From the NCBI GenBank assembly GCA_009746045.1, contig RPFO01001819.1, positions 27,901 to 91,900 of the forward strand: a DNA stretch of 64,000 nucleotides, given 5' to 3'. The DNA is from Mesostigma viride (lineage: Eukaryota > Streptophyta > Mesostigmatophyceae > Mesostigmatales > Mesostigmataceae). The first letter of the stretch is position 1. The number at the start of each line of letters is the position of its first letter. Both the position numbers and the translations under genes were made by a program. Below are positions 12,087 through 63,270 of the stretch, piece by piece. The notes under the pieces were generated by a model that saw only the letters and a program-made list of their open reading frames with translations, made no database searches and was not told where the DNA came from.

Positions 12087-12195
12087 TTAATGCCAAGCTA
12101 ATTGTACACACTTATAATGGCTAGCAAGACCAATTACAAATGGATAATTGCCCCGGGCTCAATGTGTAGGCGTATTCGCACTTATCATTCATTAA

Positions 12196-22740: not shown

Positions 22741-22748
22741 CGTGAGGT

Positions 22749-26948: not shown

Positions 26949-27243
26949 GACTGGCGTGCTTGCTCCGGAGCTTGGGGCAGTCGCGCTTGAGGTGTCCCAC
27001 CTCGCTGCACATGAAGCACCGCGCCTTACTAGCGTCGATCGCGTTTACACCCTGGTCAGTGTAGCCATCATCAGGGTCGTCGAGGTACTCCTCCTCCTCC
27101 TCGCCGGCGAGCTCGGTGGAGTACATCTGGTTCACCCGTCGCGGGGGAGCTGGCCTGAAGAAACGGCGCACCGAGGGGCGCGCCCGCGAGACACCACGTC
27201 GGCCACCTGCAGAAGGTATCTCTGGATATTCAGGATGTCCCAC
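26581..27243 (-). CDS. gypsy nucleocapsid segment (CCHC)
   Basis: C-terminal part of gag in a frame shifted by one base from the capsid part. It contains one zinc knuckle CFMCSEVGHLKRDC (C-x2-C-x4-H-x4-C), flanked by an acidic tract (AGEEEEEYLDDPDDG) and basic Arg-rich segments, and ends with Glu/Gly-rich residues. The capsid and pol frames are the same (frame shared by 28844 and 26948), so the two frame changes around this piece compensate each other; they could be sequence errors in one continuous gag-pol or real frameshifts. Confidence 0.8.
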   Translation of the reverse strand: MGHPEYPEIPSAGGRRGVSRARPSVRRFFRPAPPRRVNQMYSTELAGEEEEEYLDDPDDGYTDQGVNAIDASKARCFMCSEVGHLKRDCPKLRSKHASRGAGDMEPSVRFSGPAFGSRPDSSGPRDRPRNAGERAARLQHARQVPTQYQQPRPPATSSTKGVLRAVNEIEARRQSSSSGQTYAVAGYEYDDEEEADEEEEGGEEGGRSGEAASRPTAPRE

Positions 27244-36615: not shown

Positions 36616-36801
36616 TATTTTTAGATCTGCCTGATGGGTCCCTGGGACAACCTCCGGTGTCAGTGTTCAGTAGCCATGCCCAGCTACCTGTGCAACTGCC
36701 TTTACGAGGCCAGGGTCAACTTCACCGTCTAAACGTCCAATAATGCATGATAAGTGTGTCATGTCTCGCACCCAGCGCCCCCCCCTGGGGGGGGTCCTTA
36801 A

Positions 36802-38885
36802 CCCTTCAACTGTCAAAACTCGAACCACGAGAACGGACTGAGTTTGGGTATCTTTGTGCGCCTGAGAGTAACTAGCCAAATAACATTTTCTGGCCCACCC
36901 TTGGAACCAAGCATGCTTTTATATCAAATAATGTTTGGGAATTTTGGTTGGTCACATATCCATGCCCTACACCTGCTAAAAATAGCACCCCCCTCAGGGG
37001 GGTACAGTGCACATGGGGTTGGAGACATATATAATGCATTATCGACCATTTACACAAATCAGTTGGCCCTGGCCTTTTAAAGGCAGGTTATTATAATCAT
37101 AGACATGCCATCAATCCATTCACAACATGAAATGTCACAAAACTGTGGACGCTAGCTACAAAATGGCCAAAGCCAGCTGGCACCGTTATAACGGTGCCAG
37201 CTGGCAGGGGTATAAATGGTAGCATAACAACACAAAACTTTATTCCAATTGGCATGAAACAACAAGGGATGCCCAATTGGGCATCATGCACCATACCCAG
37301 GTGATAAAACAAGAGACCATGCCATATAACACATGCCAACATGCCGCAAGGGGCCAAAATGGCACTAGCGCGCGCGTGCGGTATACATAGCGCAAGACTA
37401 GCCAAGGGTGTAGCTAACTGTCAATTGGGCTACCTGGCTATGTGCCAAACTACGGATTGCGCCTCTGGGTGCGCAGATCCTGCCTCCTACAAGGCCCTGT
37501 CAGCTGGGTGCCAGCTGCCAACGTGCGGGTCGTGCGGCCATTGGCCTCAGCCCATGCGCGGCCAGCCGGGCTGCGGGCTGACAAGGGCTGCATGGCACGC
37601 TGGCGGCGGGCGTTGTCGTCGTCGAGGCCAGCCACTGGCCCAGCGTGGAAGCTGAGATAAGCCAGCATATAAGACACAAGACCATGCTAAAAAATAGGTG
37701 AAAGGCTCATTAATCAAGGCCTCAAGCGCGCGTCAAAGGGGTGGCAAGGAGCTACATCACTAACCCACCCGATGAATGACAAAACACCTCCACGTTCTTT
37801 GCAACAATAAAGTAAACAAAATGAACAAGTTGGTAATGCTTCCATGCAAACAGGTATTGGGTATCTCCATGTTTGTCACATGCAATGGATGCAAAATCAG
37901 AAGGTGGGCGTTGGCCAGCAAAACAAGAAGCCATGCCTAAAACTGGTCAGAAAAGAACTTGTCTCGGGCTGTTTGAGCCAGGAAAAGCATTGGTTGGGTA
38001 ATCACCTTTACCATATTACTAACCAATACCAACCGTTATCACGCTATTTCCGTTGCAGCCTCAGCTAACAGCGACCAAACATGGTCCAAAATCTGCTTGA
38101 CCTGATGGTATTCCACAACTATGACAAGCCGATGCGTAGAGGGAGCAAAACAACAAAATGACAATCACAAGCCCTCGATTATAACCCTGATATTAGTTAT
38201 AAACGATAATACAACCATATACGGTTAACGGAACACGCTAGGAGGCTAGAACGTACCAGGTCGGAACAGCAGATTACCTTTCCTGCGGGAGCCAGCACGC
38301 CCGATTCATGGACGTAGCCTCGAGCCTTTCCTGGCTGCCAATTCTAGCAAATCTGGTTGGGAACGACGTCAAAGGTTTATCCATGCGCAAATACCTCGAA
38401 AATTTCCGCCTAGCAACATGCAGCACTCGCACTGTCACCGCCTGGCCGCTGACATGATTTGCTGCGCCAACCAGCACCCCGATGACCCATCTACGCATCT
38501 TCAAACGTTCCATGGCTGGGGATAAAACGTTTTTAGGACTTGAAAATCATGCCTACAAAATTTGAGTCCATTATGTCAAGCCATTCTCTCGTACCAGTCA
38601 GTTGTGTGCACCGCCATAGCCGTGCGCGTCAATATTTTTCATGCACGTCGGTCCCGTTGGACCATGGTAACCCCCTAACTTTGCTCAAGCATATCTCCCT
38701 GGCCAGGTGTCCAAAATACGGTCTGAATAGCGCCAGGCATAGCTTACGTCTAGATCTTTCGATCCCCCCAGGTTTGACCGTTAAATTATTATTGGCGCGG
38801 CGCCTGGTTCTGCCACAAACTCAGTCCGTTAGAGTGGCGCGAGTTCAACTGGCGCCACGAAAACGGACTCAGTACAGTTTAAGGG
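36802..38885. mobile_element. TTAA element, family 2, copy 2 (2,084 bp)
   Basis: Flanked by TTAA (36798-36801 and 38886-38889). Near-identical to 12196-14278 over its full length, with scattered substitutions and small indels, including the 34-bp perfect palindrome (37172-37205). No transposase. Confidence 0.92.
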
Positions 38886-39025
38886 TTAATATGTACCCAT
38901 AGGACAGTGCAACATGACCAATGGCATGACCCCCAAGTAACTATATATATGTGTGTGCTTTGGTCCCAACATGGATAGTAAAATTGTTATTAGGTTGGTT
39001 TGTGGACCTTATAATGCAAAGTGCA

Positions 39026-41067: not shown

Positions 41068-41112
41068 ATGTCTTCGGACGACAATCTTTCAGAGCAGAGG
41101 TCTGGCCCTGGT

Positions 41113-41809
41113 AGTTAACGTTCTTCGCACACGCAATGTGAAGGATATGGTTGCAATGCAGCAATGTGTGAATATGGTTGGAAACGGAGCTTTGTTAAAT
41201 CGGATAATGTTTACAGCGCTCAACACTTGAGGCTTGCACACGAGCTTGCCAAGTCAAGGCACAACACGTGAGGCGGGCTCGCAAGAGATATCCATTTGGC
41301 ACTGGCCTATTGTTTATATACTTGTGCACTGTGCTTGCTAGTCCTGAGCAGCCTAGGAGGCCTGCTCAGTAATAACACTCCCGGTACAGTATTCACTACC
41401 TGTACAGCGCCCAGCTCCTATACAGTAGGTCTGCCATACAGGCACAGTGACCACAGAGTACAGTCACCACAGTGATTATTGCATCTGCACCTAGAAGTCC
41501 AGGACTAAGCCTGCGGTACCAACAGACCACAGGTTAAGGTTCCTATTTCCTGCGTACGACGTATTAATCCAATACCGTCGTAGGTACAGCACCTAATTCC
41601 TGTCAGCCCAGGAATTACTGTCGACCCCATATGTCGTCGGCAAATATTCACGTCCGACTTAGAAGAACAGCCGGCTCGCGCTCGCGCGCGACCGGGAAGT
41701 CGGAACGCCATAACTTTCTTGATACTTGTCGGAATGAACTCGTTCCGGTGCCGCTGGAATCGCAGAGATATGCCGAATCAGGATCACGCCAATGCGCTTG
41801 GCGTTAACT
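41113..41809 (-). repeat. copia-1 3' LTR (697 bp)
   Basis: Near-identical to 48446-49141. Contains CTGAGCAGCCTAGGAGGCC and several CTGTACAG/GTACAG words. Terminal inverted bases AGTTAACG/CGTTAACT. Confidence 0.93.
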
Positions 41810-41830
41810 CCAATCCTTTCTTTTCTTGAG
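41810..41830 (-). other. copia-1 polypurine tract
   Basis: Next to the 3' LTR the minus strand reads CAAGAAAAGAAAGGATTGG and then the LTR start AGTTAACG. Purine-rich and at the expected place, it fixes the minus orientation. Confidence 0.7.
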
Positions 41831-42555
41831 CTGTAGCAGCTCACACAAGTCTACATACAAACACACACAATGGGTACTGGATATCCTCCCCAGACTACAA
41901 GTCACAACCCGCTGGGCATGACAGTCAGCTTGGATTCCTTATTATATGTACATAGCACCCATACTGGCTCAGGAGCACAAACAAATTACAATGAGTCCCT
42001 ATCCCTTCACGGGAGGCTCGTTGTGTTACCCATGTACAAGAGGTTGGCCAACTGTGGCAGCCCATAGGTGTTCAGTTAAGAACTTGAGAAGTATGTACAA
42101 CCTTCAGGACCTTAGGCGAAACCCCACAGATCACCCACAACAGCTCATCAGAAAACATTGCTGACCCCCAGACGGGAGTCGGCGCCGGTCTGCTGCCCCT
42201 TATCGAACCAGACACAACATCTACGCGAAGCACATGCAAAACACAAGCTCCTACTCGTTCCAACCGTGGAAAATCAGGGGACCTGTCGCCACCTCACCAG
42301 CATGGTGGATGGGTCAGCCAGTCCGTGAAACTCCGCCTTAAGACGGCACCAGGGAATCGAACCCCGCCCACAAACCACAGATCTGGGGAAACCTCAGACT
42401 GAGATGAAAACCCCAGATAGACATCTCTCCATCAGAGACAATGTCAGACATTCCCACACCAGAGACATGTCTCACCCCTCAAGGTGTGCTCAGGATTATG
42501 TACAATCAAGCTCCCAGCCTGATATCCAGAGACTTAAGCACCCAGCTCTCAGCTT
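41831..42555. other. copia-1 sequence between pol stop and polypurine tract
   Basis: About 0.7 kb without a supported ORF. It includes a hairpin TGAGCTGTAGCAGCTCA near 41,828. Unusually long for a copia 3' non-coding region. Confidence 0.6.
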
Positions 42556-45500
42556 TTAGACAGATAGACCGACTTGACAGTCAGCATTCATGAGCTTCCT
42601 CAGTACATTGTACTGGGCTGGGGCCTTGTGTGGCAGCTTTGTCAATGCATCAGCAGGGTTCTCCTCGCCAGGGATATGCTTCAAGTCAACCAAACTGGCC
42701 AACTCCTTCAGCAACAAATAATCCAGGTCCCGGCTCCTGGCCAGCTGCTTGTGAACAAACTGGACCATACCCATGCTGTCTGTTAGCAACAACGTCTCCA
42801 TCTGCAAGGTCCAAGGGGTAACTGAAGCCAGCTCCAGCATTAACTCCTTTATGTACAGGCTGGACTGGATCCCCTCGCATATGGCCCTGCATTCTGCCAC
42901 ATCTGAACTGATACAGACCCTCTTCTGCAGTCTGCTGTACCAGCTGAACAAACTTGCCCTGCTCTGATAAAAAGCAAACAGAGCAGCAGATCTCCCCCTG
43001 ACCTTGGTAACCTGGCGAGCATCCATGGAACTGTCAACAAAGATCTCCAAGGTGATAGGCTGGGCAAAGTCAATCCCAGACAAAATCAGATCAGGGGTAC
43101 TCTCCACCAACCGGGCTATGACTCGAGGCTTCTCATCCTCAAGCACCTCATCAGGCATTCTGCTATGGACCATCAAAGACGGACCACAGATGCTGGCAAA
43201 CCAGGCCCACATGCCTCTCAACTCAGGTCCTGCAGCCTGGGTGATCTTCTCTGGCAAGGCCTTCACAATGGTCTGTTTATAATCTCCTCCAGCCTGAAGC
43301 CTGATACTCCACTCCCCGTCCCTCCTGAACAGGGTAGCCTGCATTCCACAGAACACTACAGGCTTGTTGGGCTCCTGCCACAGCTCCTTGCCCAGTGAAA
43401 ACTTGCCACTGATGACAGGAATAAACTTCTTCAGCCAGGTCGTGGGGGCTAGCAAATGCAGATCATCTCCATGCAAACTAGCATACACTGGCAGACCCTC
43501 CCATTGGGCCAGCAGCAAACAGGGATCAACTGAAGACACTCTCAAGCCACACTCACTGATCAGAGCTTCCTGCAGCGTGAGTCTCCAGATGATTGGGCTC
43601 GACCTGAGTCCTTCCAGGCCCTTCAGAATAACCAGGAATTGTTGATGCAGCTCCAGCTTCCAGATGGCAGGCACCTCAACACAGTAAGGCTCATCCTGCT
43701 TCCACACCCTCCTGGCCACTTCTGGATCAGATTTTAAAAATGCCCTCTTGAAGTCCAGCAGCACTGATGACATAGCTGCTCCCCTGTTCAGCAACCCCAC
43801 GTAGAGACATAGCAAAATTCTCCATGTGTCGTGTAGCATCCCTGGCGTGTATAGCTCCTCTCCTGGCAGACTCCCCGTGCCGTGATACTCATTCAGGACA
43901 GGCCTGACATGGGGCACTGATACCTCATCCACAACCTTCCTCTTCAGCACAAATCTCAAAGCAAGCTTCCTTGATGCTGGGGGACGTCTGTCTGTTGGTG
44001 CAGCACACTCAAACTGCAACCACTCCTCCAATGCCTTGGAGAAGGCGAGCTTCCAAGCCTCAAACAAAGTAGGCGAGCTCATCTCTTGGACCAGCTGGTC
44101 ATATGTCAAAGGAGAGTGTGCAGCAAGGCTCCTGTGAGTTATGCCAATACTGCTGGGGTGCAACACAGCTGGAATAACCAAACTGGCCGCTGGGGGCACC
44201 TCCCCTTCATCCCATTTTACACCCTTGACCGGCTTGGCCCTGCACCTGACTGGAAATGTTGTCCTGAAATTTTCTAGGGGAATCATCCCCCAGCCATCTC
44301 TTCTCAGAGCTGTAGCTCTGATAGAAATCCCAGGATTGCCCAGAAAATTCTGACCCAAAATCACAGGGCCATCATAGTCCTCTAGGACAAGGAAGGTCAC
44401 ATCCACACCCATGACAGGGGCAGTAACCTCTCCCAACACCCTTAGATGCGTCCTACCACTGAAATCAGACACCCAGGGGCAACTTGGTTCTCCGACCAGC
44501 AGTTCTCCTGTATGCTGAGGTCCCATGACAGAAACCTGTGCATTGGTATCTATCTCCATGGCAGCTACCTCAGGTTCATCCAACTGGACAAGCTTGGACA
44601 CCTTAGGCTCCTTCTTGGCTCTTTGCAAAGCCTGTACAATATCTGATAGACGCACACCCCTAGGCCTGGTGTCGGGCCGTTCCGGAGGTGCAGCCTGTCC
44701 GCCTGCTTGCCCAACCACCGTATGTGAAGGTACCCCAGGGGCCGGGCCAGGGTCACCCTGAGGGCTCGATACAGCTGTAGCACCCTGATCAGGAAGCTCC
44801 ACGTCACCCCCGCCTTGTACACCAGCGGGCACCTGGAAGAGGTCTCCTTGATTACCTCCCCGGGGACGGATCTTTGACCAGGACAGACGGTGCACTGCTT
44901 GGGAGCCATCAATGGCCACCCAGCACTTATGGCCAGCGGCTTCTACTCGGGTCACCACCCCATCATGCCAGCTGCCACGTTTCCCTGGAAAGCTTGGTTC
45001 CTTCCACACAACAACCTGTTGTCCAACGTTAGGTTCTAGGACACTCCAGCCCTTGTCTTTCTGCCTCAGCTTGAGGAACTTGGCCTCTAGCTTCTCCTTC
45101 CATGCCTGCTCAGCATCAGCTGGCAGCATCCTGGTATGCAGCATAAGAGGATTGATGGCAATGTCACCAAAGAACATGGGAGTCCTCAGGTTCAGCCTGT
45201 CCTCCACAGAACGTAGCCATGCAGATGTCACAATGGCAGATGACGTCCTTGGAATCCTCTCCACCAGCAGCACAGTCTTGATCTCTTGGATGGCTCTCTC
45301 CACCACCCCTTGCTGGCCGTGGCTCTCCCTGGGTGTAATCAGCAACTCTGGAAACTCTGGCAGGTTCTCACAGCACTCAAACTGAATGTCACACTGCAAC
45401 AACTCCAACCCAGGGTACCTGCTCCTTGTCAACTTCAGAGCAGCAATCAATGTAGGCTTCTCCATGTCAGGCAGGATCTCTAGGGTCTTGTACTTGGTAT

Positions 45501-46149
45501 ATCTGTCCACTGCCACCAGCAGCTTCAAACCCCTGATTCTCTGAATATCTACCTGCACATGGCCTGGCTGCAAAATAGGAGTCCTGGCATGAGACTGCTT
45601 GGGCTTTCTAGCAACTAGCCTGCACTTGCAAGCTTGAGCAACCTGTTGGCAGATGGAGTACAACTCACTTCCTCCCAGCCGTCTAGCAACTTGCAAAGAC
45701 TGAGCTGCATGGCCAAACATGGTATGCAACCTTGAGGCAATGTCATACAAGAGAGAAAACCTTTTATTGTCATTATTAGCACTCAAGGTATGTACAGATC
45801 CCTTATGTACAGGAGGCACCAGGGTCGTGCCTGTCAGACTGTCTCCAGCCCTATCCTCATCCTGACCATCCTGTGCCAGTCCTGCACGGTCAGAATGCTT
45901 CTGAGATCCACCTGGGTCCACATCACCAGGTCCTACCTCAGGCTCAGCACCGCCATGGCGGGCACGTTGGCGAGTAACCACTGCAGCTACAGCTGGCATA
46001 CTCTCTGTGGTAACCAAGCTTGCCCCATCGTGTCCAATAGGCTCTTTCACTAGAGCATGGGGCTGCCCCTCACTGCTGTCACTAGCAGCTTCATTACACA
46101 CCCCTGGGGGCACCCTCCAGGGTTCAGGGATGTGTGCAGGCTCAATCAA
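42556..46149 (-). CDS. copia-1 pol: integrase, protease, RT, RNase H (1,197 aa)
   Basis: One intact frame. Residues about 140-176: HHCC-type module (LHTMFGHA...C...C). Integrase core: D201 (HVQVDIQRI), D254 (LLQCDIQFE), E284 (GQQGVVERAIQEI); the last two are 29 residues apart, not the usual 35. Residues about 500-615 look like an aspartic protease: MEIDTNAQVSVMG (D534, DTNA for DTGA), THLRVLGEVTAPVMGVDVTF, VILGQNFLGNPGISI. RT: VLLDFKRAFLKSD (D799), LHGDDLHLL (D895-D896, HGDD for YVDD). RNase H: IFVDSSMDA (D1039), SSDVAECRAI (E1086), LLTDSMGMVQFV, NPADALTKLP. Gag overlaps by a few bases in a -1 relation (gag ends CATTGA). The order integrase-protease-RT is not the classic copia order. Confidence 0.93.
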   Translation of the reverse strand: MIEPAHIPEPWRVPPGVCNEAASDSSEGQPHALVKEPIGHDGASLVTTESMPAVAAVVTRQRARHGGAEPEVGPGDVDPGGSQKHSDRAGLAQDGQDEDRAGDSLTGTTLVPPVHKGSVHTLSANNDNKRFSLLYDIASRLHTMFGHAAQSLQVARRLGGSELYSICQQVAQACKCRLVARKPKQSHARTPILQPGHVQVDIQRIRGLKLLVAVDRYTKYKTLEILPDMEKPTLIAALKLTRSRYPGLELLQCDIQFECCENLPEFPELLITPRESHGQQGVVERAIQEIKTVLLVERIPRTSSAIVTSAWLRSVEDRLNLRTPMFFGDIAINPLMLHTRMLPADAEQAWKEKLEAKFLKLRQKDKGWSVLEPNVGQQVVVWKEPSFPGKRGSWHDGVVTRVEAAGHKCWVAIDGSQAVHRLSWSKIRPRGGNQGDLFQVPAGVQGGGDVELPDQGATAVSSPQGDPGPAPGVPSHTVVGQAGGQAAPPERPDTRPRGVRLSDIVQALQRAKKEPKVSKLVQLDEPEVAAMEIDTNAQVSVMGPQHTGELLVGEPSCPWVSDFSGRTHLRVLGEVTAPVMGVDVTFLVLEDYDGPVILGQNFLGNPGISIRATALRRDGWGMIPLENFRTTFPVRCRAKPVKGVKWDEGEVPPAASLVIPAVLHPSSIGITHRSLAAHSPLTYDQLVQEMSSPTLFEAWKLAFSKALEEWLQFECAAPTDRRPPASRKLALRFVLKRKVVDEVSVPHVRPVLNEYHGTGSLPGEELYTPGMLHDTWRILLCLYVGLLNRGAAMSSVLLDFKRAFLKSDPEVARRVWKQDEPYCVEVPAIWKLELHQQFLVILKGLEGLRSSPIIWRLTLQEALISECGLRVSSVDPCLLLAQWEGLPVYASLHGDDLHLLAPTTWLKKFIPVISGKFSLGKELWQEPNKPVVFCGMQATLFRRDGEWSIRLQAGGDYKQTIVKALPEKITQAAGPELRGMWAWFASICGPSLMVHSRMPDEVLEDEKPRVIARLVESTPDLILSGIDFAQPITLEIFVDSSMDARQVTKVRGRSAALFAFYQSRASLFSWYSRLQKRVCISSDVAECRAICEGIQSSLYIKELMLELASVTPWTLQMETLLLTDSMGMVQFVHKQLARSRDLDYLLLKELASLVDLKHIPGEENPADALTKLPHKAPAQYNVLRKLMNADCQVGLSV

Positions 46150-47330
46150 TGATCAGCAGCCTTGCCCTTGCCCTTGTCCTGGGATGGACCAGCCTTGTCC
46201 TTGCTGCCACCCTGAGCTGGCTTGCTCTGACCTTCCTGCCTCAGGTACGAGGGACACTCATTCCTGAAGTGACCCTTCCCCTGGCAGAAATAACATTCCA
46301 CCTGACTGATGTCCCGTGAGGTCCCACTGCTGGGCCCAGCCTTGGGAGGACCACCCACCCTCTTGAAGTCAAACTGGGACTGTGGATGTCCCGACTTCGG
46401 CGGGGTCCCCCGTCCAGCCCTTCTGTCACGCCCCCTCCTGGACCTTCCTCGACCCCTTGAAGAGGTCTCAGGCCCTCTCGAGGACGCTGGGCCCCCGTGG
46501 CCCGATCCCCTCATGGACTTAACCGTGGGTTCAGTGGCCTCCTCATCATTCTGACGAGGGCGCTTACCCCCACGTACTTGCCGCTGAAACACTCATACAA
46601 CTGATCCGTCATGGCTGCCCAGCCATGGACCTGTCGCATGTGGATGGTCACATTATCCATGGTGACCGGATCCAGTGCAGCGACTTGAGAAAGTCGCCCA
46701 TGGCCATCCGATCTGCGACGAAGAAGCCCTTGGCCATGGCGTCCTCCCTCAGCTTGACGAAGTCTTCAAAGGCGTGGACCACTAGTTGCCCCTTGATGGG
46801 CTTGTAGTCCAGGTATTCTTGCTTCAGGTGGGACCCATCTATGGTCCTCTTGTCACTCAGGAACACCTGAGTCGCGTCATAAACGCCGCCCAGGTGTCCC
46901 CCGCCGCGTGTCGCTCCCGAACAAACTTGAACAGCCGCCTCGCCGACTGCCGTATGTAGGCACTAGACGCCAGGATGCGAAGCTTGTCACCGTTGTATAT
47001 CTCCGTGTACAAGTTCATGTCCTCTAACATCCTCTCAGCATCCCGGGGCTGCCAATTGTCCTTGATGGACTGAAACTGGCCTAGCACCGCGTACCCCTCA
47101 GCAACGGTTGGTCGCTTAGGCGCCGCTTGATCTGCGGCTGGCGCGTGCTGCCCGCCCTGCGATCCTTGGCTCTGATTATCTGGCACCTCAGCCTGGTCTC
47201 CCAGCGCCTGGCCGTCCCCGCGTCCATCGCGTCCACCGCGTCCATCGCGTCCATCTCGTCCATCCAGCCCAGCGCCGCGCCGTCCGAAGCCCATAAAGCC
47301 CGCTTGTTGGTTGATAGCTCCATCCTCCAT
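46146..47330 (-). CDS. copia-1 gag with zinc knuckle, several frameshifts
   Basis: Starts MEDGAINQQAGFMG at 47330, with an Asp/Arg/Gly repeat (DGRDGRDGRGGRDGRGDG). The capsid-like part includes FQSIKDNWQPRDAERMLEDM and SARRLFKFVRERHAAGDTW, then continues in another frame from about 46,870 (VFLSDKRTIDGSHLKQEYLD, AMAKGFFVADRMAMGDFLKS), then through a third frame to the C-terminal part (46592-46146) with the knuckle CYFCQGKGHFRNEC and Lys/Gly-rich end. The first and last parts share a frame, so the shifts cancel. One break sits at a five-G run. Either the copy has decayed or the sequence has indel errors. Confidence 0.8.
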
Positions 47331-47432
47331 GATGGCCTCTGTTCAGATCTGCTACAGCCAGCCAAGTGGCCAAGCAGCAATTAAAGCAATATAAGCTACT
47401 GAACAAGAAAGGAAAGTGCCAAGTGTTACCAC

Positions 47433-48352
47433 TCAGGCAAGACCACCACGGCTGGCCCCAGGCGCGTCCTGGTTCTCCTTGTCGCTGTCGTCGTCGCTGT
47501 CGCTCACCACAATCAGCTCTGGTACCCTGCTACCTGCTGCGCCGTCGTCGACCCGCTGTCGGCCCGCGATGACTGAATCGTCACCGTTGGTAAAGTAGAC
47601 AGGTGACAACCCGTCGTTGGCACCTCGCGGATTGTACGTTGGCACCTCGTGGTCGCCGAGTGCCTCGTCGCCTAGCCCAGCGACACCCCCTGCTCCTACC
47701 TCAAGGTCACTCTCGTACCTAAGAGGTGCAAACTCCTCCCAACGCGTCACACGAACGCGAAGGGGCGGGGGCAGTTCCTGAAAAGGAACTCTTACTCGCT
47801 CTGGAAACCTGCCGACTCTTGTCGCGCGCGGTCCTCCGGCGATGGCTTCCGCTGTCGCCCCGACCTCTGCAAGCCGCCTGTGATGCTCCGCTCCGCGTCG
47901 TTCACGCCTAACTGGCCCGCTGCAACACCCTCGTCGCCGATGCCGCCTGCGAAAGCACGTGGTACTCCCGCGCCCGCTACTGTCGGCACAAACTCGTGTC
48001 GCCCTGCGCCAGCTGCCTCCGCAACCTCGCCTCGCCTTGCTGCCAACTCCGTCCGCACTCGCTCTGCTACTGCAGTAATCACCGTCTGGATGCCGACCAA
48101 CCCGTGAAGCTCCTGCTCAAGGTCGTCGATGCTCCGGTGCTCCGGAATGACGATGGTTTGTACGTGTCGCAGAATTCGCTCCCAGTCTTCGACCTGGTCG
48201 TCGACGAATTGCACGAAGCTGCGATTTACAGGCGGACGATCTGCAAGCAACAAAGATAGATCCCGAACGACACGGCGTAATTCAGGAGAAATCGAACCCC
48301 CAGCAGACTGCCGAAACCGGAAATCCTGCTGCCGTTGTTCCTCCTGCACCAT
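47433..48352 (-). CDS. copia-1 ORF0, leader protein upstream of gag
   Basis: A 186-codon frame (48352-47792, MVQEEQRQQDFRFRQSAGG) and a second frame to 47433 join by one shift near 47,800, where the second frame reads GRFPERVRVPFQELPPPLRV continuing to TRWEEFAPLRYESD. Together about 300 residues. The N-terminal half is helical-looking (LRRVVRDLSLLLADRP, FVDDQVEDWERILRHVQTIV, AVAERVRTELAARRGEVAEA); the C-terminal half is acidic, ending VVSDSDDDSDKENQDAPG. No family recognised. It precedes the gag start by about 100 bp on the same strand, inside the LTR-bounded element. It could be an N-terminal gag extension or a separate accessory protein. Confidence 0.65.
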
Positions 48353-48445
48353 TCACCACCGGACGAGCTCCTCTCGTCGTCAAAGCTGCACACCGCAACC
48401 GGCAACGACCCTCCTGGCCGTTCCGCTGAGACTGGTTGTAATTTG

Positions 48446-49141
48446 AGTTAACGTTCTTCGCACACGCAATGTGAAGGATATGGTTGCAATGCAGCAATGT
48501 GTGAATATGGTTGGAAACGGAGCTTTGTTAAATCGGATAATGTTTACAGCGCTCAACACTTGAGGCTTGCACACGAGCTTGCCAAGTCAAGGCACAACAC
48601 GTGAGGCGGGCTCGCAAGAGATGCCCATTTGGCACTGGCCTATTGTTTATATACTTGTGCACTGTGCTTGCTAGTCCTGAGCAGCCTAGGAGGCCTGCTC
48701 AGTAATAACACCCCGGTACAGTATTCACTACCTGTACAGCGCCCAGCTCCTATACAGTAGGTCTGCCATACAGGCACAGTGACCACAGAGTACAGTCACC
48801 ACAGTGATTATTGCATCTGCACCTAGAAGTCCAGGACTAAGCCTGCGGTACCAACAGACCACAGGTTAAGGTTCCTATTTCCTGCATACGACGTATTAAT
48901 CCAATACCGTCGTAGGTACAGCACCTAATTCCTGTCAGCCCAGGAATTACTGTCGACCCCATATGTCGTCGGCAAATATTCACGTCCGACTTAGAAGAAC
49001 AGCCGGCTCGCGCTCGCGCGCGACCGGGAAGTCGGAACGCCATAACTTTCTTGATACTTGTCGGAATGAACTCGTTCCGGTGCCGCTGGAATCGCAGAGA
49101 TATGCCGAATCAGGATCACACCAATGCGCTTGGCGTTAACT
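48446..49141 (-). repeat. copia-1 5' LTR (696 bp)
   Basis: Pairs with 41113-41809. A plus-strand ORF can be read out of its end into copia-2 gag, but that is an accident of insertion. Confidence 0.93.
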
Positions 49142-49146
49142 CTGGT

Positions 49147-50344
49147 GAGCACGGACCGGCTCAATTTTCTGTCGACCCTGGCCCAGGCGAGCACAGGGAT
49201 GACAATAAGAATATGTCCGACCAGCCCCGGGAGGAGGGCTGCGGGCAGGGAAGTACTAGTAGTGACAACCAGCGTGCGCGTGATAAAGTGCTTCGGCGGG
49301 AGACCTTGCTTCAAGAGGCGAAGCTGCTGTCGGCAATCAAGAAATGGGTTCCAGCCCCGCTGGTGCCTGGTGCTATTCAAGCAGACCGGGATCGCTTTGT
49401 AAGCTCTCTTGGGCCGTTTTTCCGCAGGCTCGCGGGCAACCGAGACATCATTCCGGACTGGCTGGAGTTTCTTCGTGGAACCCCGCTGGGAGACCGCGAG
49501 AAAAACCACCCAGAGTGGATTTCGCTGCTGGATAGAGCACAGCGTCTGCGGTGGTCGCCGTTCGAGTTTCTGCGCCGAGCGAGGGAGACTTTTCTTCGTT
49601 CTATCACTGGCCAAAACCTGCGACGAGATCGAGGAATTTGTAGATGCAAAGCCGAAGCCCGGGCAGACCATCATCGAGCACCTCAACTCTTACTACGACA
49701 TGCTGGAGAAGCAGGGGCTCCGGTGGCCTGACGAGGCGGTGAATCTCCGATGGATCCAAAACTGTGCTCTGTCCGAATCCGAGAAGCGGAATTTGGTCGC
49801 CAACTGCCGCGGTTACCTGTGCGACACTCACCGATGCAGAGCTCACCTCAAGGAGCTCCTGACGAATCAAACCCGTGTTTCCAGAGAAGGAGGTGCCGCG
49901 GAGGTGCCTCGTGTCGCCATGGTGATGGAGCAGCAACGGGAAATCTTCTGCTACAACTGCGGGCAGCCCGGGCACACACGCCGCGCATGTAAGGGTAAGG
50001 TTGTCGCTAATTCTGAGTCCTTCCCTCCCTGCACTTTCTGTAATAGGACTAACCATCTGGCTAAGGATTGCTACTTTCGCAAGTGCAAGTCTTGTGGCAA
50101 TTCTGGACATGATGCGTCTGCCTGCAGGAGCAAGGCGGGCGCTGGACCCAAGGATACCCAGATGGAGGTCCTCAAGCTGCTGCAGCAGATCTCCCAAGCC
50201 GTCAAGAGCGGTGCCCTTCGTGGTGGCGACGCTTCTCAGCCGCGTGGTGGTGACGCTTCCCAGCCGCGTGGTGGTGATGCTTCTCAGCCGCGGGGTGGCA
50301 ATACCTCTCGTGGCCGCAAGAGGAAGCAGCAGCAGAAAAACTAG
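49147..50344 (+). CDS. copia-2 gag with three zinc knuckles (5' exon-like piece at 41068-41112)
   Basis: Encodes a capsid-like N-terminal region (EAKLLSAIKKWVPAPLVPGA, WLEFLRGTPLGDREKNHPEW), a one-base shift near an A4 run at about 49,613, then EEFVDAKPKPGQTIIEHLNS and three C-x2-C-x4-H-x4-C knuckles: CYNCGQPGHTRRAC, CTFCNRTNHLAKDC and CKSCGNSGHDASAC. The tail has four near-copies of RGGDASQP and a basic end. The true start is at 41068 (MSSDDNLSEQRSGPG); copia-1 insertion separates it from the rest. Knuckle number (three) is higher than in copia-1 gag (one). Confidence 0.85.
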
Positions 50345-50382
50345 ATGATCCTCTCTGTTTATATAACCCCTACAGCGTCCTT

Positions 50383-52068
50383 ATGGATGCTGATGAGAGT
50401 GGACTCATGGCAGATGAGGCCTGCCAGGTGGTAGGGGCTCCAGCAGTAACCCCTACTGACCGTAAAGCTGCCCCAGTGAGCAGCAGTAAAAGTGCCCCTG
50501 TTTGTGGCATTCCTATCCATGCCTGGAATAAAAAGAGTACCCCAGAGGGAACTCTTCCTGTAAATAATACATGTGGATCTGCTCCTGGTTGTAGACAGAT
50601 GCCACATGGTGTTGCCCAGGTGAGCAACGTATCTGTGAACAATACATGTGGTGCAGCTCCTGTTTGTAGCCAAGCACCCATTGATATTGTTAACAGTCAA
50701 GCTCCTCAGAGCAATAATCCTTGTTATATTGATAATAAAAACTTGGACTCTTGCTCTGCCAGGAACGTGGATGCCCGTCCATGTCCTGAAGAGCCTGAGC
50801 CTAATGATTGTATTAATCTTAGGACTCTGGCTAAGAGTTTGCATGATGCCTGTGGCCATGGAAACAATGCCATTAGGCTTGTTCAAGCCATTAATAACAA
50901 GGCTCTCTGGCAGGCTTATCAAGATGTCAGAGAACATTGTGTGTGCCAATTGTGTGCTAACAAGCCTTCCAAACGTCATGCAAAGCATCCTGCAGATGGT
51001 AGGGGTAATCTACAAGCTGATATCCTCTACTTCACCAATTACAGGCAATTGCCTTACTTGGTGGCTGTGGATGAATGGTCAGGCTACATTCGAATTGAAC
51101 CTATGGCAGCAGGGGATGAGAATACTCTCCATGCCGCAGTTCTTGTTATTCTGCAGAAGTTTGCAGTTATTCATAAGCTGCAGATGGACTTGCAGTTTAA
51201 CTGCCTGACCAAATACTCTGATCTGCCTTTCCTAAGGATTGTGGGTCGTGAAGATCACCAAGCCCAAGGCAAGGTTGACAGATATATACAGGAGCTTAAG
51301 AAGTTGGTAATATCCGGGGACTATCCTGAGATGTTTAAACCAACTTTTGCTGTCAGGTGTTTGGGTGCTGCAAAAGTGGAAAACACCATGAACAACCGTT
51401 TTCATACTATCAAGGTGCGTGGTGTTCCACGGCTGGTCTCACCTCGTGGACTAGCAGGTGGCCTCTACCCTGATGACATCATGCAGGCATGGAGTAAGCA
51501 GAGGTGGGCACAGTATGCTCATCTCTGTGAAAAGGATAAACAGAGAGGAGAATCATTAAAATTTGAGGTGGGAGACCAGGTGATCTTCCACAAAGAAAAT
51601 GCTCCTGGTAAACGTGGTTATTGGCAGGGTCCAGGGACCATAACCTCAGTTGACCTGGAGATGAAAACTGCTGATGTGGTCTGGAATGGGACCACTTATC
51701 ATCTGGCTTGGAATAGATTGAAGAGAGATCCAATGAACGTTCAAGAAAATCCCCTGGAAATTATGGCCCCTGAAGAGGCACTTGGATCTCCCAATCTTTC
51801 CTGTCCACCTTTGGCCAGTGAACAGGCTGGACTCCAACTACCAGAAAGGGCGGCCTCCCATCAACTGGAGCCTACTACTCAGCAAGCTCAGCCTAAGACA
51901 TTGACTGGGATATCACAGGATGATATGGATGAAGCTGACTTGTTGGATAATAGGGTGTCTGATCAGCACCGGAAGCTCCGGCCGTTGGAACATGGGCTTG
52001 AGACCCCTGGGCAGGTGGATAACATATTTCAGTCTGAACAGCCAAAGCTTGGATCCAATTACCACTAG
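50383..52068 (+). CDS. copia-2 integrase ORF (561 aa), no RT
   Basis: Starts MDADESGLMADEACQ 39 bp after gag stop. Low-complexity N-terminus with repeated VNNTCG-AP-C motifs. HHCC-like module: SLHDACGHG with CVCQLC (about 154-191). Core: D213 (LQADILYFTNY), D269 (LQMDLQFN) and D299 (GKVDRYIQELKKL) where Glu is expected, again 29 residues apart as in copia-1. A C-terminal domain follows (FEVGDQVIFHKENAPGKRGY, GPGTITSVDLEMKTADVVWN), like the integrase chain end in copia-1 (VGQQVVVWKEPSFPGKRGSW). Stop at 52068. No protease or RT follows. The E-to-D change may impair catalysis. Confidence 0.85.
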   Translation: MDADESGLMADEACQVVGAPAVTPTDRKAAPVSSSKSAPVCGIPIHAWNKKSTPEGTLPVNNTCGSAPGCRQMPHGVAQVSNVSVNNTCGAAPVCSQAPIDIVNSQAPQSNNPCYIDNKNLDSCSARNVDARPCPEEPEPNDCINLRTLAKSLHDACGHGNNAIRLVQAINNKALWQAYQDVREHCVCQLCANKPSKRHAKHPADGRGNLQADILYFTNYRQLPYLVAVDEWSGYIRIEPMAAGDENTLHAAVLVILQKFAVIHKLQMDLQFNCLTKYSDLPFLRIVGREDHQAQGKVDRYIQELKKLVISGDYPEMFKPTFAVRCLGAAKVENTMNNRFHTIKVRGVPRLVSPRGLAGGLYPDDIMQAWSKQRWAQYAHLCEKDKQRGESLKFEVGDQVIFHKENAPGKRGYWQGPGTITSVDLEMKTADVVWNGTTYHLAWNRLKRDPMNVQENPLEIMAPEEALGSPNLSCPPLASEQAGLQLPERAASHQLEPTTQQAQPKTLTGISQDDMDEADLLDNRVSDQHRKLRPLEHGLETPGQVDNIFQSEQPKLGSNYH

Positions 52069-55830: not shown

Positions 55831-57052
55831 CATCAGCAAAGTATGATGTACATGGCAACCCATGGAAGCGTGCGGCGGGGGCAAAATATATGCTACAGGA
55901 ATTGAGAAAATGGCATCAACAAAATCGCACGCTGTGGAAGAGCCTTAAAGTGGTAAAACAACGCCACAATGGAGGTGTGACCAGTCGGCTTCAGGGAAGA
56001 GTAGCGGTGAGTCACTCTCTTATTTTAGTTGGCGGCAATTCATTGCTGTGATGCAGGCTGCCATGCCAGCAGTCTTCCCTAATGTGTATGGTAGGAGTAC
56101 AAGACTAAGGCAGTTATGTTGCTGGCCTCTGCACTGACCCTCCCGCTACATTGTTGGTAATGTTGCTGCTTGGTTGGCTTTCCTTTGACGTGCATATCGT
56201 CCAATTCTGTGATGCAGATTGAACGCCTAAGCAGCCACATCTATATCTGGAGCAAGGCATGAACGGCAGCAGAAAAGAGAGAGGAAGAGAGGGAAAGAGA
56301 GGCTGCGGAGAAGCGCGAGGAACAGCTAAGATGCAAGAGGCAACGGGTGGAGGAACATGGCAACGAAGCCAGCGGTAGTGGGAGCTGCGAGCGAGCACGT
56401 CAACTGCGGTGGATGCACACGTGGGGGAGGCACATGCGGGGCAAGCATGTGTAGGCCTGCAAATCGTGCCAGGGCCCACCGTGATTGCAATTGCCGAGTT
56501 CCTGCTGAAGCGAGCACTGGCCTCCTTTCCGCAGTTGGCAGCCAAGGACGCGACAATCACGCTTGTGGAGAGTTTGTGTAAGGAAGAACCTGGACTCGGC
56601 ATCGGGCAGTCCAGCGGTGGACCTGCTGAACAACACAGCCTGTGCCCTTGCGAATGCCGCGCTGCAGTTGGTCTCCAACTCCGTCCATCCATGTTGATGG
56701 CAAGGTTAGTTGTGCCACATTTTCTTCCTGTTTTGGGTATGACGCATCAATAATTGCCCCTTGTATGTACGGGTGCGGTCGATTGACCTCCCTCCAGCAA
56801 CATTGCAACATCCGTTACTGACGTCCACTGCGGCGGATGCGTTCCTCCAGCATGTTAGTTGCCTTGTGAGCTGTAATTGTGCAGGGTGTCGTCAGTACAT
56901 CCGATGAGAAGGATAACAAGGAGCTCAAGTGTCACTGGTGTTGCCTGGTTGATGGCGCGCGTAATATCCATGGGCATCAGCATATGGTCCCAAACACACT
57001 CAAACGGCTGGCCGAGTCGCTGGGAGAGGCAGTCCACATGCAGTTGGAGAGG
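55831..57052 (+). pseudogene. broken spliced gene, family unknown
   Basis: Exon-like 55831-56006 (YDVHGNPWKRAAGAKYML, WHQQNRTLWKSLKVVKQRHN) ends at donor GTGAGT and joins in phase 0 to an exon at 56218 (acceptor TGATGCAG; IERLSSHIYIWSKA). There an in-frame TGA interrupts, followed by a strongly charged coiled coil (TAAEKREEEREREAAEKREE). Further on, another frame gives VIAIAEFLLKRALASFPQLA and TITLVESLCKEEPG; donor near 56,705. A last piece from 56885 has CHWCCLVDGARNIHGHQHM and VPNTLKRLAESLGEAV, a possible Cys/His zinc site, then runs into the GGGA array. The stop and frame breaks indicate a pseudogene, though the spliced structure is clear. I assign no function. Confidence 0.5.
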
Positions 57053-57070
57053 GTGGGTGGGTGGGGTGGC

Positions 57071-57222
57071 GGGAGGGAGGGAGGGAGGGAGGGAGGGAGG
57101 GAGGGAGGGAGGGAGGGAGGGAGGGAGGGAGGGAGGGAGGGAGGGAGGGAGGAGGGAGGAGGGAGGGAGGGAGGGAGGGAGGGAGGGAGGGAGGGAGGGA
57201 GGGAGGGAGGGAGGGAGGGAGG
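57071..57222. repeat. (GGGA)n microsatellite
   Basis: About 37 near-perfect GGGA units with two GGA interruptions. Any Arg/Glu/Gly protein read from it is an artefact. Confidence 0.95.
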
Positions 57223-57229
57223 GTGGGTG

Positions 57230-59000
57230 GGTGGTTATGGTGGGTGGATGGGTGCAAGGGTGGTTGCTTATAAGTGAATCGCCAGGTGGCTGGGGGATCG
57301 ACGGGGTTTGGGAACTCCTAGGTGGGTGCATTGTTGGATGCCTGAGTGAAACTGTTGCATGGGCTGGAGGATTTGCACCGTTGGTTTGTGGCGGGTGGAT
57401 GTGTAGCTGTGATTAGAAGTGGGTGGGGTGAGCGATGGGGAAGGTAGATGGGTGGGTGGGTGCACGGATATGGGTGGGTGGGTGGTTTTGTAGTTGGGAT
57501 CGACTCACCTATCGCGGGTGGAGGGCTGTGCATGTTAGGGGTGAGATGGGTGGGTGACTGGCTGAGAGGATGTGGATGTGTGAGGGTGAGTGGGTGCAGG
57601 TCGGTGGGTATAAGGGTATGGGGGGAAAGAGTGGTCGAGTGGGAAGGGGCGTGGGTGGGTCAGGGGTGGGCGGCCTGGTGGGCACACATGGGGCCAGCTG
57701 GCTGGGTGGTTAGGTGGCTGCGTGGTTTTAGTAATGGGTGCCTGGATAAAAGGATGGGTGAATGCCTCCTTATTGCCTAGGTGGGTAGATTGCATATGTG
57801 GCTAGCTGGGTGGGTGGATGTCCCAGTGGGTGGGTATGTGGCTGGGTGCCTGGGTGCACGAGTGGTTAGATAGGTTGGTTTAGTAGGTGCGTGGCTGGCT
57901 GGCTGGGTCACCGGGTGGGTGGACCAGTGGGTGGCTGGGTACTCAGGTGCGCAAGTGTATGAGTACTTGTGTGGGTGGGCCAGGTGGATGCATGGGTGGG
58001 TGACTGCATGGGTGACTCGGTACGCACAAAGGGCAACGGATATAGACATGGGGATATGCCAATGCCTTGGGGTGAGCATACGTGGATGCCAGGTGACATG
58101 TGCCAGCCTGTCGCAGTTATACTATACCTTGGCGTTTGCTTGGCGTGTCGTTGCCAATAATTTCACACAGGATGTACATGGTACGTGTTGGTAGCAATCA
58201 CATGGCTGTGTTAGTGAGTGATGTTGCATGTATTGTTCAGCTTTCTTTCCCATTTTGCAATGTGCCAAGGTTCTTAAGTAGTTTAGAAGTATGGTGTCAT
58301 GGGGTATACATCAAGGAGACAACCAGCGCAGGCCAGAAATCGGGAGAATCCGGACCATGGTAGCTCACATGCATGTGCACTGCACATCACACATTTGTGG
58401 CATACTCGCAATGTCTACCTTACATCTTGCATTCTGTTAGGAACAGTCGCCACTCAGGCATTCACATGCACCAGGGTTTCGCTCACTGTTTGTGCTGTAG
58501 TCATCGTTAAATCAAAAATCTTTACAAAGCCTGGCAATTGTCATAATGTTGGGCTCCTTATGACATGAGATTTTGCACACGAAGTTTTGCGACCATGCTT
58601 CAGATGCTTGCATGATGACGACCAGTTTTGGTTGTAATATGACATGGTGGTGCAGGTGCCCTGGTGCACCTAGAGCAGGGGTAGCTTACATTCCCACCCT
58701 TGCATGAAGTAGCCTAGAATGTATTAAAAGCCATATGCCCCTTCTCAGGGATATGTGCTACATTTACTCCCAACGGAGTGATGTTGATAACTAATTAATT
58801 AATGACATCATATTAATTTTTAAAATCATTATTGATAGCAACACTACCTTGTTAGCATTTGTTACCATTCAGGGCTCCAAATGCCCTGAGGCGTTGTACA
58901 AGGTCTGAACAACCGTAATTCATTGTGGCTGTTAAGTTCCAGCTTCGTCGGGCATAATTCGTCTAACTATCTAAGTGCAAACGTTGTTTGGAAGGGACTC
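57230..59000. repeat. segmental duplication, copy 2
   Basis: Collinear with 53625-55330. The GGGA array lies at its start and a LINE 3' fragment (58646-58801) interrupts it. Confidence 0.85.
58646..58801 (+). mobile_element. 5'-truncated LINE insertion, 3' UTR only (156 bp)
   Basis: Matches 40225-40376 and ends AATTAATTAA. Flanked by ATGACAT on both sides (58639-58645 and 58802-58808), a target-site duplication. Duplication copy 1 near 55,105-55,115 shows the corresponding uninterrupted sequence. Confidence 0.85.
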
Positions 59001-59350: not shown

Positions 59351-59363
59351 GAACATCCATCCA

Positions 59364-59591
59364 TCCTCCCTCCCTCCCTCCCTCCCTCCTCCCTCCCTCC
59401 CTCCCTCCCTCCCTCCCTCCCTCCCTCCCTCCCTCCCTCCCTCCCTCCTCCTCCCTCCCTCCCTCCCTCCTCCCTCCCTCCCTCCCTCCCTCCTCCCTCC
59501 CTCCCTCCCTCCCTCCCTCCCTCCCTCCCTCCCTCCCTCCCTCCCTCCCTCCTCCCTCCCTCCCTCCCTCCCTCCCTCCCTCCCTCCCTCC
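59364..59591. repeat. (CCCT)n microsatellite
   Basis: About 55 CCCT units with CCT interruptions; complementary in sequence to the GGGA array at 57071-57222. Confidence 0.95.
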
Positions 59592-60293: not shown

Positions 60294-60390
60294 CGATGAT
60301 TACTCTGATGATTACTCTGATGATTACTCTGATGATTACGCATGATTACGCATGATTACGCATGATTACGCATGATTACGCATGATTACA
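60294..60390. repeat. ATGATTAC-based microsatellites
   Basis: Four 12-bp units ATGATTACTCTG followed by about six 10-bp units ATGATTACGC. Confidence 0.9.
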
Positions 60391-60393
60391 CCG

Positions 60394-60985
60394 GTATTAC
60401 ATAGGAAGGAGTGACTATGTACTCCACCCTATGTACTCCAAGAGTACATAGGGTGGCACACTATGTACTCCAAGAGTACATAGTGTGGAGTACATATGAT
60501 CCGGGATTTTCGAATAGGGGACTGCCGACGCGGTGAGACACGCCCGTATTACATAGGAAGGAGTGACTATGTACTCCACACTATGTACTCCAAGAGTACA
60601 TAGGGTGGCACACTATGTACTCCAAGAGTACATAGTGTGGAGTACATATGATCCGGGATTTCCGAATAGGGGACTGCCGACGCGGTGAGACACGCCCGTA
60701 TTACATAGGAAGGAGTGACTATGTACTCCACACTATGTACTCCAAGAGTACATAGGGTGGCACACTATGTACTCCAAGAGTACATAGTGTGGAGTACATA
60801 TGATCCGGGATTTCCGATAGGGGACTGCCGACGCGGTGAGACACGCCCGTATTACATAGGAAGGAGTGACTACCTATGTAATCCACACTATGTACTCCAA
60901 GAGTACATAGGGTGGCACACTATGTACTCCAAGAGTACATAGTGTGGAGTACATATGATCCGGGATTTCCGATTAGGGGACTGCC
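60394..60985. repeat. 152-bp tandem repeat of hairpins, four units
   Basis: Units start at 60394, 60546, 60698 and 60849. Each has two copies of CTATGTACTCCAAGAGTACATAG (stem-loop with CAA loop), extended by flanking CCACACTATG/CATAGTGTGG arms, then TGATCCGGGATTT and GACGCGGTGAGACACGCCC. Units are almost identical. Confidence 0.93.
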
Positions 60986-62008
60986 GAACTCGAGGCCCCC
61001 AGAGTACTAACTAGGCTGACTATGTACTCGAGTCACGACGCAGTGAGATACGCCAAGCCGCCCGAAGCAGATCTCTGCATGCGCCACGTGTAACGAGGGT
61101 TCTGCTTGCGAATTCGAATTGCGATGAGCCGTTGCAGACGCGCCGCCTAGATGTTTGAATTCCATCAACGAGCCTTGAACGAGCTGGTAAAGTTTGCCTG
61201 CCCTTGCATCACCTTGCGCTGGCTATGCCGATTGCAGTCCAGCCGACTGATAGTGGTGCAAGAATAAGCGCCCCCCTAAACCCGCATGCTCACGATGCTT
61301 GAAGAAAAAAAAGCAAAAGGCGCACCAGGATGCATGACAAGCCCTTTTGGAGCCCCAGTTTAGCATGATTCGGTCATCCGTTTCCAGCCATCGGCAGCGC
61401 CAACTCCGATACAGCTTACTATGGCGTAGTCGGTAGCCAGCTACACCGCTTTTCTTGCCTTTGTTACTACATGCAAACTTCAATTCGTTACATCGTGCGC
61501 CTGCGGCATATTTAAGAAAGCGGCTGCAAGCGCACCTTGCTGAGCCAGGTACACAATGTCTTCAGTCAGCGACCGCGTATGCATGCCACGTTTAGTCGCA
61601 TCGAGTCGCGTAGACAATGCGTTCCGGATTAAATTGTTCACCGTTCAATTGCTCAGCGCTGCCTGAATGCAGCGCGCTTTATTACTGATTCTGTCCTCTT
61701 TGCATGCATTGCAGTGGATTGTATGTTATTTTCACGTTGTCCATCTTTCCACTCGCTTTCATTGTTTACCAGATACCAAAAGTCTCCCACGAGGTAGGCG
61801 ACACTTCAATCTCGCTTATTTTACACCTGGCACACCTGGGCTTCTCTGTATGTGCCGATGCCCATCGTAAGTTGTTGAACGTTTTTTGCCCTCCATGGTT
61901 TCCAATTTTACTAGGAGTTCTTAGGAGCTCTCTCTCCATTGACTTCTCTGTCTCTTTTGCTTTGGCCATGCCATGTTAGGGTAATGTCTTCCTTGCTGCC
62001 ATGCTAGC
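60986..62008. other. no gene recognised
   Basis: Unsupported ORFs on both strands. No repeat or element end recognised. Confidence 0.4.
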
Positions 62009-63270
62009 GGGCCCACGTGCTTGTTCCTTGTCAAAGTAGGGAGGCTCGCGGGGTAGGTGGCTGGTAATGCTTGTACCTTATCAAGGGAGGGGCCCACGTA
62101 GGGTAGGTGGGTGGGCATGCGTGTACCTTGTCAAGGGAGGGATTCACGTATGGTAGGTGGGTGCACGAGCTTGGTCCTTGTCAAGAGTCACATACGTAGG
62201 GTAGGTGAGTGCACGTGCTTGTTACTGGTCAGGGGAGGCATGGATGTGGGGTAGGCATGTGCACGTGCTTATTCCTTGTCAAGGGAGGGACGCACGTAGT
62301 GTAGGTGAGTTCATGTGCTTGTTCCTTGTCAAAGGAGGGGTGCACACAGGGTGGGTGGGTGCACGTGCTCGTTCCTTGTCAAGGGAGGCATGCATGTGGG
62401 GTAGGCATGTGCACGTGCTTGTTTCATGTCAAGGGAGGGATGCAGGTAGGGTAGGTGGGTGGGCTTGCTTGTTCCTTGTCAAGGGAGGGATGCACGTACG
62501 GTAGATGAGTGCACATGCTTGTTCCTTGTCAAAGGAGGGGGGCATGTGGAGTAGGAATGTGCACATGGTTGTTCCATGTCAAGGGAGGGATGCAGGTAGG
62601 GTAGGTGGGTGGGCATGCTTGTACCTTATCAAGGGAGGGGCGGACATCGGGTAGGTGGGTGCACGTGCTTGGTCCTTGCCAAGGGAGGGATTCACGTACG
62701 GTAGGTGAGTGCACATGCTTGTTCCTTGTCGAAGGAGGGGGGCACTTAGGGTAGGTGGGTGCACGTGCTTGTTGCTTGTCAAGAGGCACGTACATAGGGT
62801 TGGTGGGTGCACGTGCTTGTTCCATGTCACAGGAGGGATGCACGTAGGGTAGGTGGGTGCACGTGCTTGTTACTGGTCAGGGGAGGCATGGATGTGGGGT
62901 AGGCATGTGCACGTGCCTATTCCTTGTCAAGGGAGGGACGCGCGTAGTGTAGGTGAGTTCACGTGCTTGTTCCTTGTCAAAGGAGGGGTGCACACAGGGT
63001 GGGTGGGTGCACGTGCTCGTTCGATTCTTGTCAAGGGAGGCATGCATGTGGGGTAGGCACGTGCACGTGCTTGTTCCTTGTCAAAGGAGGGGGTGCACAT
63101 AGGGTAGGTGGGTGCACGTGCCCGTTCGATTCTTGTCAAGGGAGGCATGCATGTGGGTGGGGCATGTGCACGTGCTTGTTCCTTGTCAAGGGAGGGACAC
63201 AACAGGGTATGTGGGTGGTTTTGCTGGTTCCTCGCCATGGGAGGGACGTAATAGGGTAGGTGAGTGCACG
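62009..63270. repeat. ~51-bp minisatellite, more than 20 units
   Basis: Units built on GCACGTGCTTGTTCCTTGTC, AAGGGAGGGATGCACGTAGG and GTAGGTGGGT, period about 50-54 bp, with unit variants arranged in a higher-order block: 62,200-62,420 and 62,860-63,060 share the same variant order. ORFs through it are artefacts. Confidence 0.92.

Follow-up and report, generated by a model that had tools for sequence, protein, structure and literature searches.

We analysed a 64,000-nucleotide stretch of Mesostigma viride DNA (the window; contig RPFO01001819.1, positions 27,901 to 91,900) and found a minus-strand reading frame, at 42556..46149, that encodes a pol polyprotein with the domain order integrase, retropepsin-like block, reverse transcriptase (RT) and RNase H. 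Judged by sequence comparison, the region is probably the pol of a young long terminal repeat (LTR) retrotransposon that has Ty1/copia-type RT and RNase H and belongs to a lineage with this order fixed. Because divergent relatives share the layout, the element looks like an overlooked branch of the copia group rather than a damaged copy. A sequence-only reading of the same DNA had proposed a single intact frame whose sole protease-like block, with DTNA at its active site, lies between integrase and RT. All three points are borne out, and the strand, which that reading left unstated, is minus. The frame is open from stop to stop over 1198 codons (42559-46152), and the plus-strand reading of 42556-46149 has many stops. 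With the codon at 46149 counted as residue 1, the frame is laid out as follows.

42556..46149, minus strand: pol, 1197 amino acids, uninterrupted, stop codon included (open-frame analysis)
45622..45726, minus strand: integrase N-terminal H-H-C-C region, residues 142-176; H142, H147, C174 and C176 invariant in three sequences
45250..45567, minus strand: integrase core, residues 195-300, with D201, D254 and E284 or E289 (PDB integrases, best E=0.0043)
44860..45027, minus strand: SH3/Agenet-like C-terminal region of integrase, residues 375-430 (Agenet E=0.0055, below the Pfam cut-off)
44260..44568, minus strand: displaced retropepsin-like block, residues 528-630 (motifs, weak profile matches, and substitution rates in a sister family)
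43270..44187, minus strand: copia-type RT, residues 655-960, with HGDD at 893-896 (hhalign to host copia RT)
42634..43062, minus strand: copia-type RNase H, residues 1030-1172 (hhalign to host copia RNase H)

The order is not peculiar to one copy. We searched the host genome (439,911,974 bases in 2243 contigs); the copy counts given here are lower bounds. With the window pol as query, 39 of 10,176 candidates were scored, and all 39 were uninterrupted and about 100% identical. Against 5.8 billion proteins, the same query had a single match among the 8000 candidates scored, a public protein from another record (P0001) that is 62% identical. Querying the genome with P0001 gave 38 scored copies (of 10,017 candidates), again all uninterrupted and at places other than the first 39; one of them is identical to the window pol at 1190 of 1196 positions. 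Three further lineages, read from the host genome, are represented by L048 (48% pol identity to the window), L047 (34%) and the Copia-2 family (31%). The integrase-block-RT order is thus common to the window pol and one member of each of four other lineages at 31-62% identity, which answers the suggestion that other elements of the same order be sought.

Copia-2 also has a frame within the window itself:

50278..52068, plus strand: Copia-2 pol frame, second family of the lineage, integrase part only (31% identical to the window pol integrase)

The sequence-only reading took support from this frame starting with integrase. It does, but it ends before any RT, and it is a complete copy elsewhere that supplies the shared order: L042, read to its end, has integrase, a block running VDTKAEVSV...LIGQPFL, RT with HGDD, and RNase H. 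Copies L040 and L041, read through the block, are arranged like L042. Copia-2 as query gave at least 80 matches, 46 of these 80 in an open frame of exactly 1344 amino acids. The window copy (49403-52068, plus strand) adjoins the 5' LTR of the main element on the opposite strand and ends after integrase; its gag frame measures 313 amino acids, against 427 upstream of L040. The other two lineages have frames of 1301 amino acids (L047, block VDSQAEVSI...IIGQPFL) and 1208 amino acids (L048, block VDTNSQVSI...LLGQNFL). Each of the two represents one of the additional families that a short RT query brought up, at identities of about 54% and of 49-46% (at least 150 matches scored among 4,446 candidates). 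In L049, a truncated element related to L048, the frame begins beyond the block. Outside the host, the protease-RT part of P0001 found itself alone among 7709 scored proteins, and Copia-2 pol found no relative among 8000, in searches that require shared exact words and may therefore miss distant relatives. Viral contigs and prokaryote genome contigs, also searched, held no relatives.

These copies bear directly on the most mundane explanation, that the order is an artefact of misassembly or of an isolated chimeric copy. Elements of unexpected domain order have been discarded as likely mispredicted in a plant survey (PMC6317226). Here, however, 39 of 39 scored copies, three more genome families and a public protein from another record agree. 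Because independent lineages carry the same order, we rejected this explanation, whose probability we consider negligible. The proposal of a distinct lineage is likewise upheld: in an RT tree, the five displaced-protease lineages form a group apart from the three host copia elements, and the branches between them have full support. Built without a gypsy row, the tree describes two separated groups, and placing the root beside or within copia is outside its reach.

The RT and RNase H tie the element to copia. A three-sequence profile matched the three host copia elements by hhalign at P=2.3e-7 over 236 columns for RT and P=8.3e-9 over 107 columns for RNase H, whereas a Ty3/gypsy element of the window, which served as control for the profile comparisons, matched neither (P=0.62 and P=0.37). 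The element is nearly invisible to the copia models of Pfam. For the whole window pol, Pfam returned nothing but a weak Agenet match (E=0.077). RVT_2 matched the RT of one of three members (E=0.0028), and PDB searches with the whole pol or with an RT-RNase H profile had no match. P0001 matched rve (E=0.15), gag-asp_proteas (E=0.086) and RVT_2 (E=0.014), in that order along the protein. HGDD does stand at the RT active site, as had been claimed, but the motif it replaces is not YVDD: the three canonical host copia elements read VHVDD there, so the change in this host is from HVDD to HGDD.

For the integrase, a three-sequence profile found 91 PDB sequences at E<=10, and the best 60 of the 91 are all named integrase or Pol. 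Pfam rve matched the integrase in two of three members (best E=0.018), and an NCBIfam search of pol gave weak IS481 transposase matches on the integrase only. No significant profile match linked it to host copia (P=0.5) or the window gypsy (P=0.15). Three sequences compared all retain D201 and D254. The PDB alignment places the catalytic glutamate at E284, but this glutamate, part of the usual GxxER motif, gives way to D in Copia-2 L042 and to N in L047; E289, five residues beyond, is invariant in all five lineages.

Between integrase and RT, residues 531-610 form the block MEIDTNAQVSVMG...VILGQNFLGNPGISI. The DTNA aspartate, D534, is encoded at position 44550, a DFSG stretch follows where the flap would be, and ILGQNFL occupies residues 597-603. 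The ILG-like motif lies 65 residues beyond D534, a spacing found in clan AA retropepsins. Across the five lineages the C-terminal motif reads ILG, LIG, IIG or LLG, and the aspartate, the neighbouring Thr/Ser, the flap-like DF.G and the ILG motif are retained in every one. On these motifs and on weak profile matches, the block is very probably an ILG-type retropepsin, and a retropepsin fold is likely. Among 24,736 Pfam models, gag-asp_proteas was the best for the P0001 block (E=0.003) and Asp_protease_2 came second; Pol_BBD matched none of the five members. A five-sequence block profile drew just two PDB sequences at E<=10. Both are tethered retroviral proteases, and both of their halves align with the block from flap to ILG. 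The block is also under purifying selection between two copies of the sister family: in the Copia-2 pair L042/L043 (88% identical), the ratio of nonsynonymous to synonymous substitution rates is 0.16 for the block and 0.10 for RT, against 0.34 and 0.32 for the flanking linkers. This is a single pair, and part of the block is disturbed in L043.

A protease in gag would have undercut the proposed order. We sought one in the window element, as well as in sequence upstream of pol in three others, without finding it. Across the whole element (41113-49142), read in all six frames, the patterns D[TS]G and D[TS][GN][AS] gave 7 matches, of which DTNA at 44550 alone lies in a long frame; the other six fall in open stretches of 7 to 60 amino acids. 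Upstream of pol in L040 (1500 bases), L047 (300) and L048 (600), D[TS][GANKQ][AS] does not occur. Inside the pols, this pattern also picks out DSAA near the L047 RNase H and DSGS towards the N terminus of L048.

Several results weigh against reading the block as a working retropepsin. The D[TS]G catalytic motif of clan AA is absent: its glycine is replaced in all five lineages (DTN, DTN, DTK, DSQ and DTN), which puts protease activity in doubt. With the window block piece, an unrelated domain of unknown function scores slightly above the protease models of Pfam. Only two of the five block members match gag-asp_proteas at E<=10, and three have no Pfam protease match. The two PDB matches are weak (E=0.82 and 2.7), and a four-sequence profile had none. 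Against the window gypsy protease, the four-sequence block aligned in register over 94 columns (hhalign P=0.023), a score equalled by 11 of 500 column shuffles, none over 80 columns; the five-sequence block gave P=0.052 over 97 columns, with 25 of 500 shuffles as high. Against the host copia proteases, the four-sequence block gave an out-of-register alignment of 22 columns at P=0.015, and the five-sequence block P=0.05 over 53 columns with the aspartate in register and 15 of 500 shuffles as high. Finally, the fold check that had been proposed fell on neither side, as AlphaFold modelled the block (two sequences) at a pLDDT confidence score of 34, too low to speak on a retropepsin fold. Taken together, the profile comparisons weakly back an aspartic-protease domain and favour neither gypsy nor copia as its source.

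Weak scores throughout, in Pfam, PDB profiles and AlphaFold, are what one would expect if the block were a linker domain that is no protease and mimics the motifs by chance. We regard this as improbable, given that two motifs at retropepsin-like spacing are kept in five lineages and that the sole PDB matches are retroviral proteases, with both halves of the tethered dimer aligned.

The loss of the glycine in five lineages (N, N, K, Q, N) would also fit a retropepsin fold that is dead as a protease and kept for another job, such as holding a Pol dimer or spacing integrase and RT. A host protease would then cut Gag and Pol, or hardly any cutting would occur. We consider this possible but less likely than not, since the aspartate, Thr/Ser, DF.G and ILG are kept in all five lineages and two of three host copia families read DSAA, which is also glycine-less, in multicopy elements with open frames. 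We lean somewhat towards the block being the element's own processing protease, which would dimerize around D534 despite the change of the motif glycine to Asn, Lys or Gln.

The canonical copia elements of this genome show what a usual protease looks like here. All three families have the protease-integrase-RT order, a protease recognized by Pol_BBD (E 2e-9 or better) and LLS after the barrel; the active site is DSAA in two and DTGA in one. L044 and L045 (G000:C557 and G000:C113) are the host copia elements with DSAA for DSGA, and their long frames are uninterrupted. According to a study of clan AA proteases (PMC2642776), ILS is usual in copia proteases at the place where nearly all other proteases carry ILG. 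The picture of a moved copia protease need not hold, because the block carries ILG and not the usual copia ILS.

Two histories can be proposed for the block. In one, an internal rearrangement carried the element's original copia-type protease to a place behind integrase, and its C-terminal motif drifted to ILG. The copia-type RT and RNase H fit this history, as does the five-sequence alignment in register at the aspartate with host copia proteases (P=0.05), and the weak profile signal leaves room for such a moved and drifted protease. Against it, the block has ILG in five of five lineages where the host copia families have LLS in three of three, and its Pfam matches are to gag-asp_proteas and Asp_protease_2, never to the Pol_BBD that detects host copia. 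We consider it conceivable but rather doubtful. In the other history, the copia-type protease with which the ancestral pol began was lost, and an ILG-type protease was acquired at a new site, between integrase and RT. The contrast between ILG in all five blocks and the ILS-type proteases of protease-integrase-RT copia elements in the host points to such an acquisition. We place it slightly below even odds, since gypsy has no advantage over copia as a source in the profile comparison. The full combination would be an undescribed copia-like branch in which an ILG-type (gypsy/retrovirus-like) retropepsin replaced the copia protease, entered pol at the integrase-RT junction and functions despite a D[TS][NKQ] site that lacks the glycine; this we put forward only tentatively.

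The rest of the element is that of an LTR retrotransposon, 8.0 kb long, on the minus strand at 41113-49141 of the window.

49142..49146: ACCAG target-site duplication flanking the element on its 5' side (read from sequence)
48446..49141, minus strand: 5' LTR, 696 bp, with ends AGTTAAC...GTTAACT (blastn self-match)
46857..47330, minus strand: gag, capsid-side fragment, interrupted in the window copy (no Pfam match)
46146..46592, minus strand: gag, frame with CCHC zinc knuckle (PF00098, E=3.7e-5)
41814..41827, minus strand: polypurine-tract-like run preceding the 3' LTR (by eye)
41113..41809, minus strand: 3' LTR, 697 bp (blastn self-match)
41108..41112: ACCAG target-site duplication flanking the element on its 3' side (read from sequence)

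The two LTRs are 99.3% identical over 698 columns of the self-match. A 5-bp target duplication, ACCAG, is present, and PMC12440569 gives 4-6 bp for most LTR retrotransposons. The same paper names TG...CA as the usual LTR termini; here they are AG...CT. After the 5' LTR, the sequence begins CAAATTACAACCAG, without a TGG start (primer site inspected by eye); in copia elements the primer site pairs with a host tRNA, which is typically the initiator Met tRNA (PMC8515867). The gag stretch varies by small insertions and deletions among eight genome copies, the window copy included, and an uninterrupted 277-amino-acid stretch occurs in two of the eight. These were chosen as the best pol matches and so are no representative sample of gag. 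In all eight, the end of the capsid stretch, the knuckle and pol lie in three different frames. Three frame overlaps, two of them in the window element and the third in Copia-2, were scanned for canonical slippery heptamers, and none was found. A splice-donor-like GGTAAG lies at 46568.

The life cycle would most likely be that of other LTR retrotransposons: a transcript would be made and enter a Gag particle, Pol would be cut into its enzymes, and reverse transcription would lead to integration with a 5-bp duplication. With Ty1/copia, the element shares LTRs, the 5-bp duplication, a CCHC gag, integrase ahead of RT-RNase H and, by profile comparison, the type of RT and RNase H. It differs in having its protease behind rather than ahead of integrase (integrase-protease-RT-RNase H in five lineages), ILG in five of five blocks for ILS, no Pol_BBD match, a replaced D[TS]G glycine, HGDD for HVDD and AG...CT LTR ends, and in being almost invisible to the Pfam copia models. 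Thus it should work like a copia retrotransposon, yet is no ordinary copia member; we do not file it as one because the defining order and a copia-type protease were both looked for and are lacking. The likeness to Ty3/gypsy is confined to the ILG-type motif and weak gag-asp_proteas similarity. Integrase precedes RT instead of coming last, after RNase H, and neither RT (P=0.62) nor RNase H matches the window gypsy.

Gmr1-like gypsy elements are a precedent for an altered pol order, with integrase shifted ahead of RT. They keep a gypsy RT and the protease first, whereas in the window element the protease is behind integrase. Troyka (PMC12440569) is likewise a divergent LTR lineage with termini other than TG...CA, but it has the gypsy/BEL order of protease, RT, RNase H and integrase, and 3-bp duplications. 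We found no description of the integrase-protease-RT-RNase H order in the open-licence literature, a search outside which Repbase and GyDB lie.

The window holds other repeats. The gypsy element used as control has the usual order:

22687-27044, minus strand: Ty3/gypsy element with gag-asp_proteas, RVT_1 and RNase H, followed in the next frame by an integrase with H2C2 and rve

A 690-amino-acid frame at 15623-17692 (minus strand) contains a DDE_Tnp_1_7 transposase domain (E=1.4e-40), which by its name we take to be piggyBac-like. A 2.1-kb direct repeat, 96.5% identical, occupies 12189-14282 and 36795-38889, and dense self-matches mark tandem-repeat arrays at 57049-57234, 59356-59591, 60388-60987 and 62014-63270.

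With N, K or Q naturally in place of the D[TS]G glycine, the family raises the question of whether the glycine of the aspartic-protease motif is needed. According to a survey of fungal elements (PMC3248453), the protease is more variable than the set of integrase, RNase H and RT and may be exchanged; the element described here is a candidate case of such an exchangeable protease with a changed position. Pol domain order is a main criterion for sorting LTR retrotransposons, and at least one large plant survey (PMC6317226) took unexpected orders for probable prediction errors and removed every element that had one. A stable different order, in many uninterrupted copies and five divergent members, indicates that such order filters can hide real elements.

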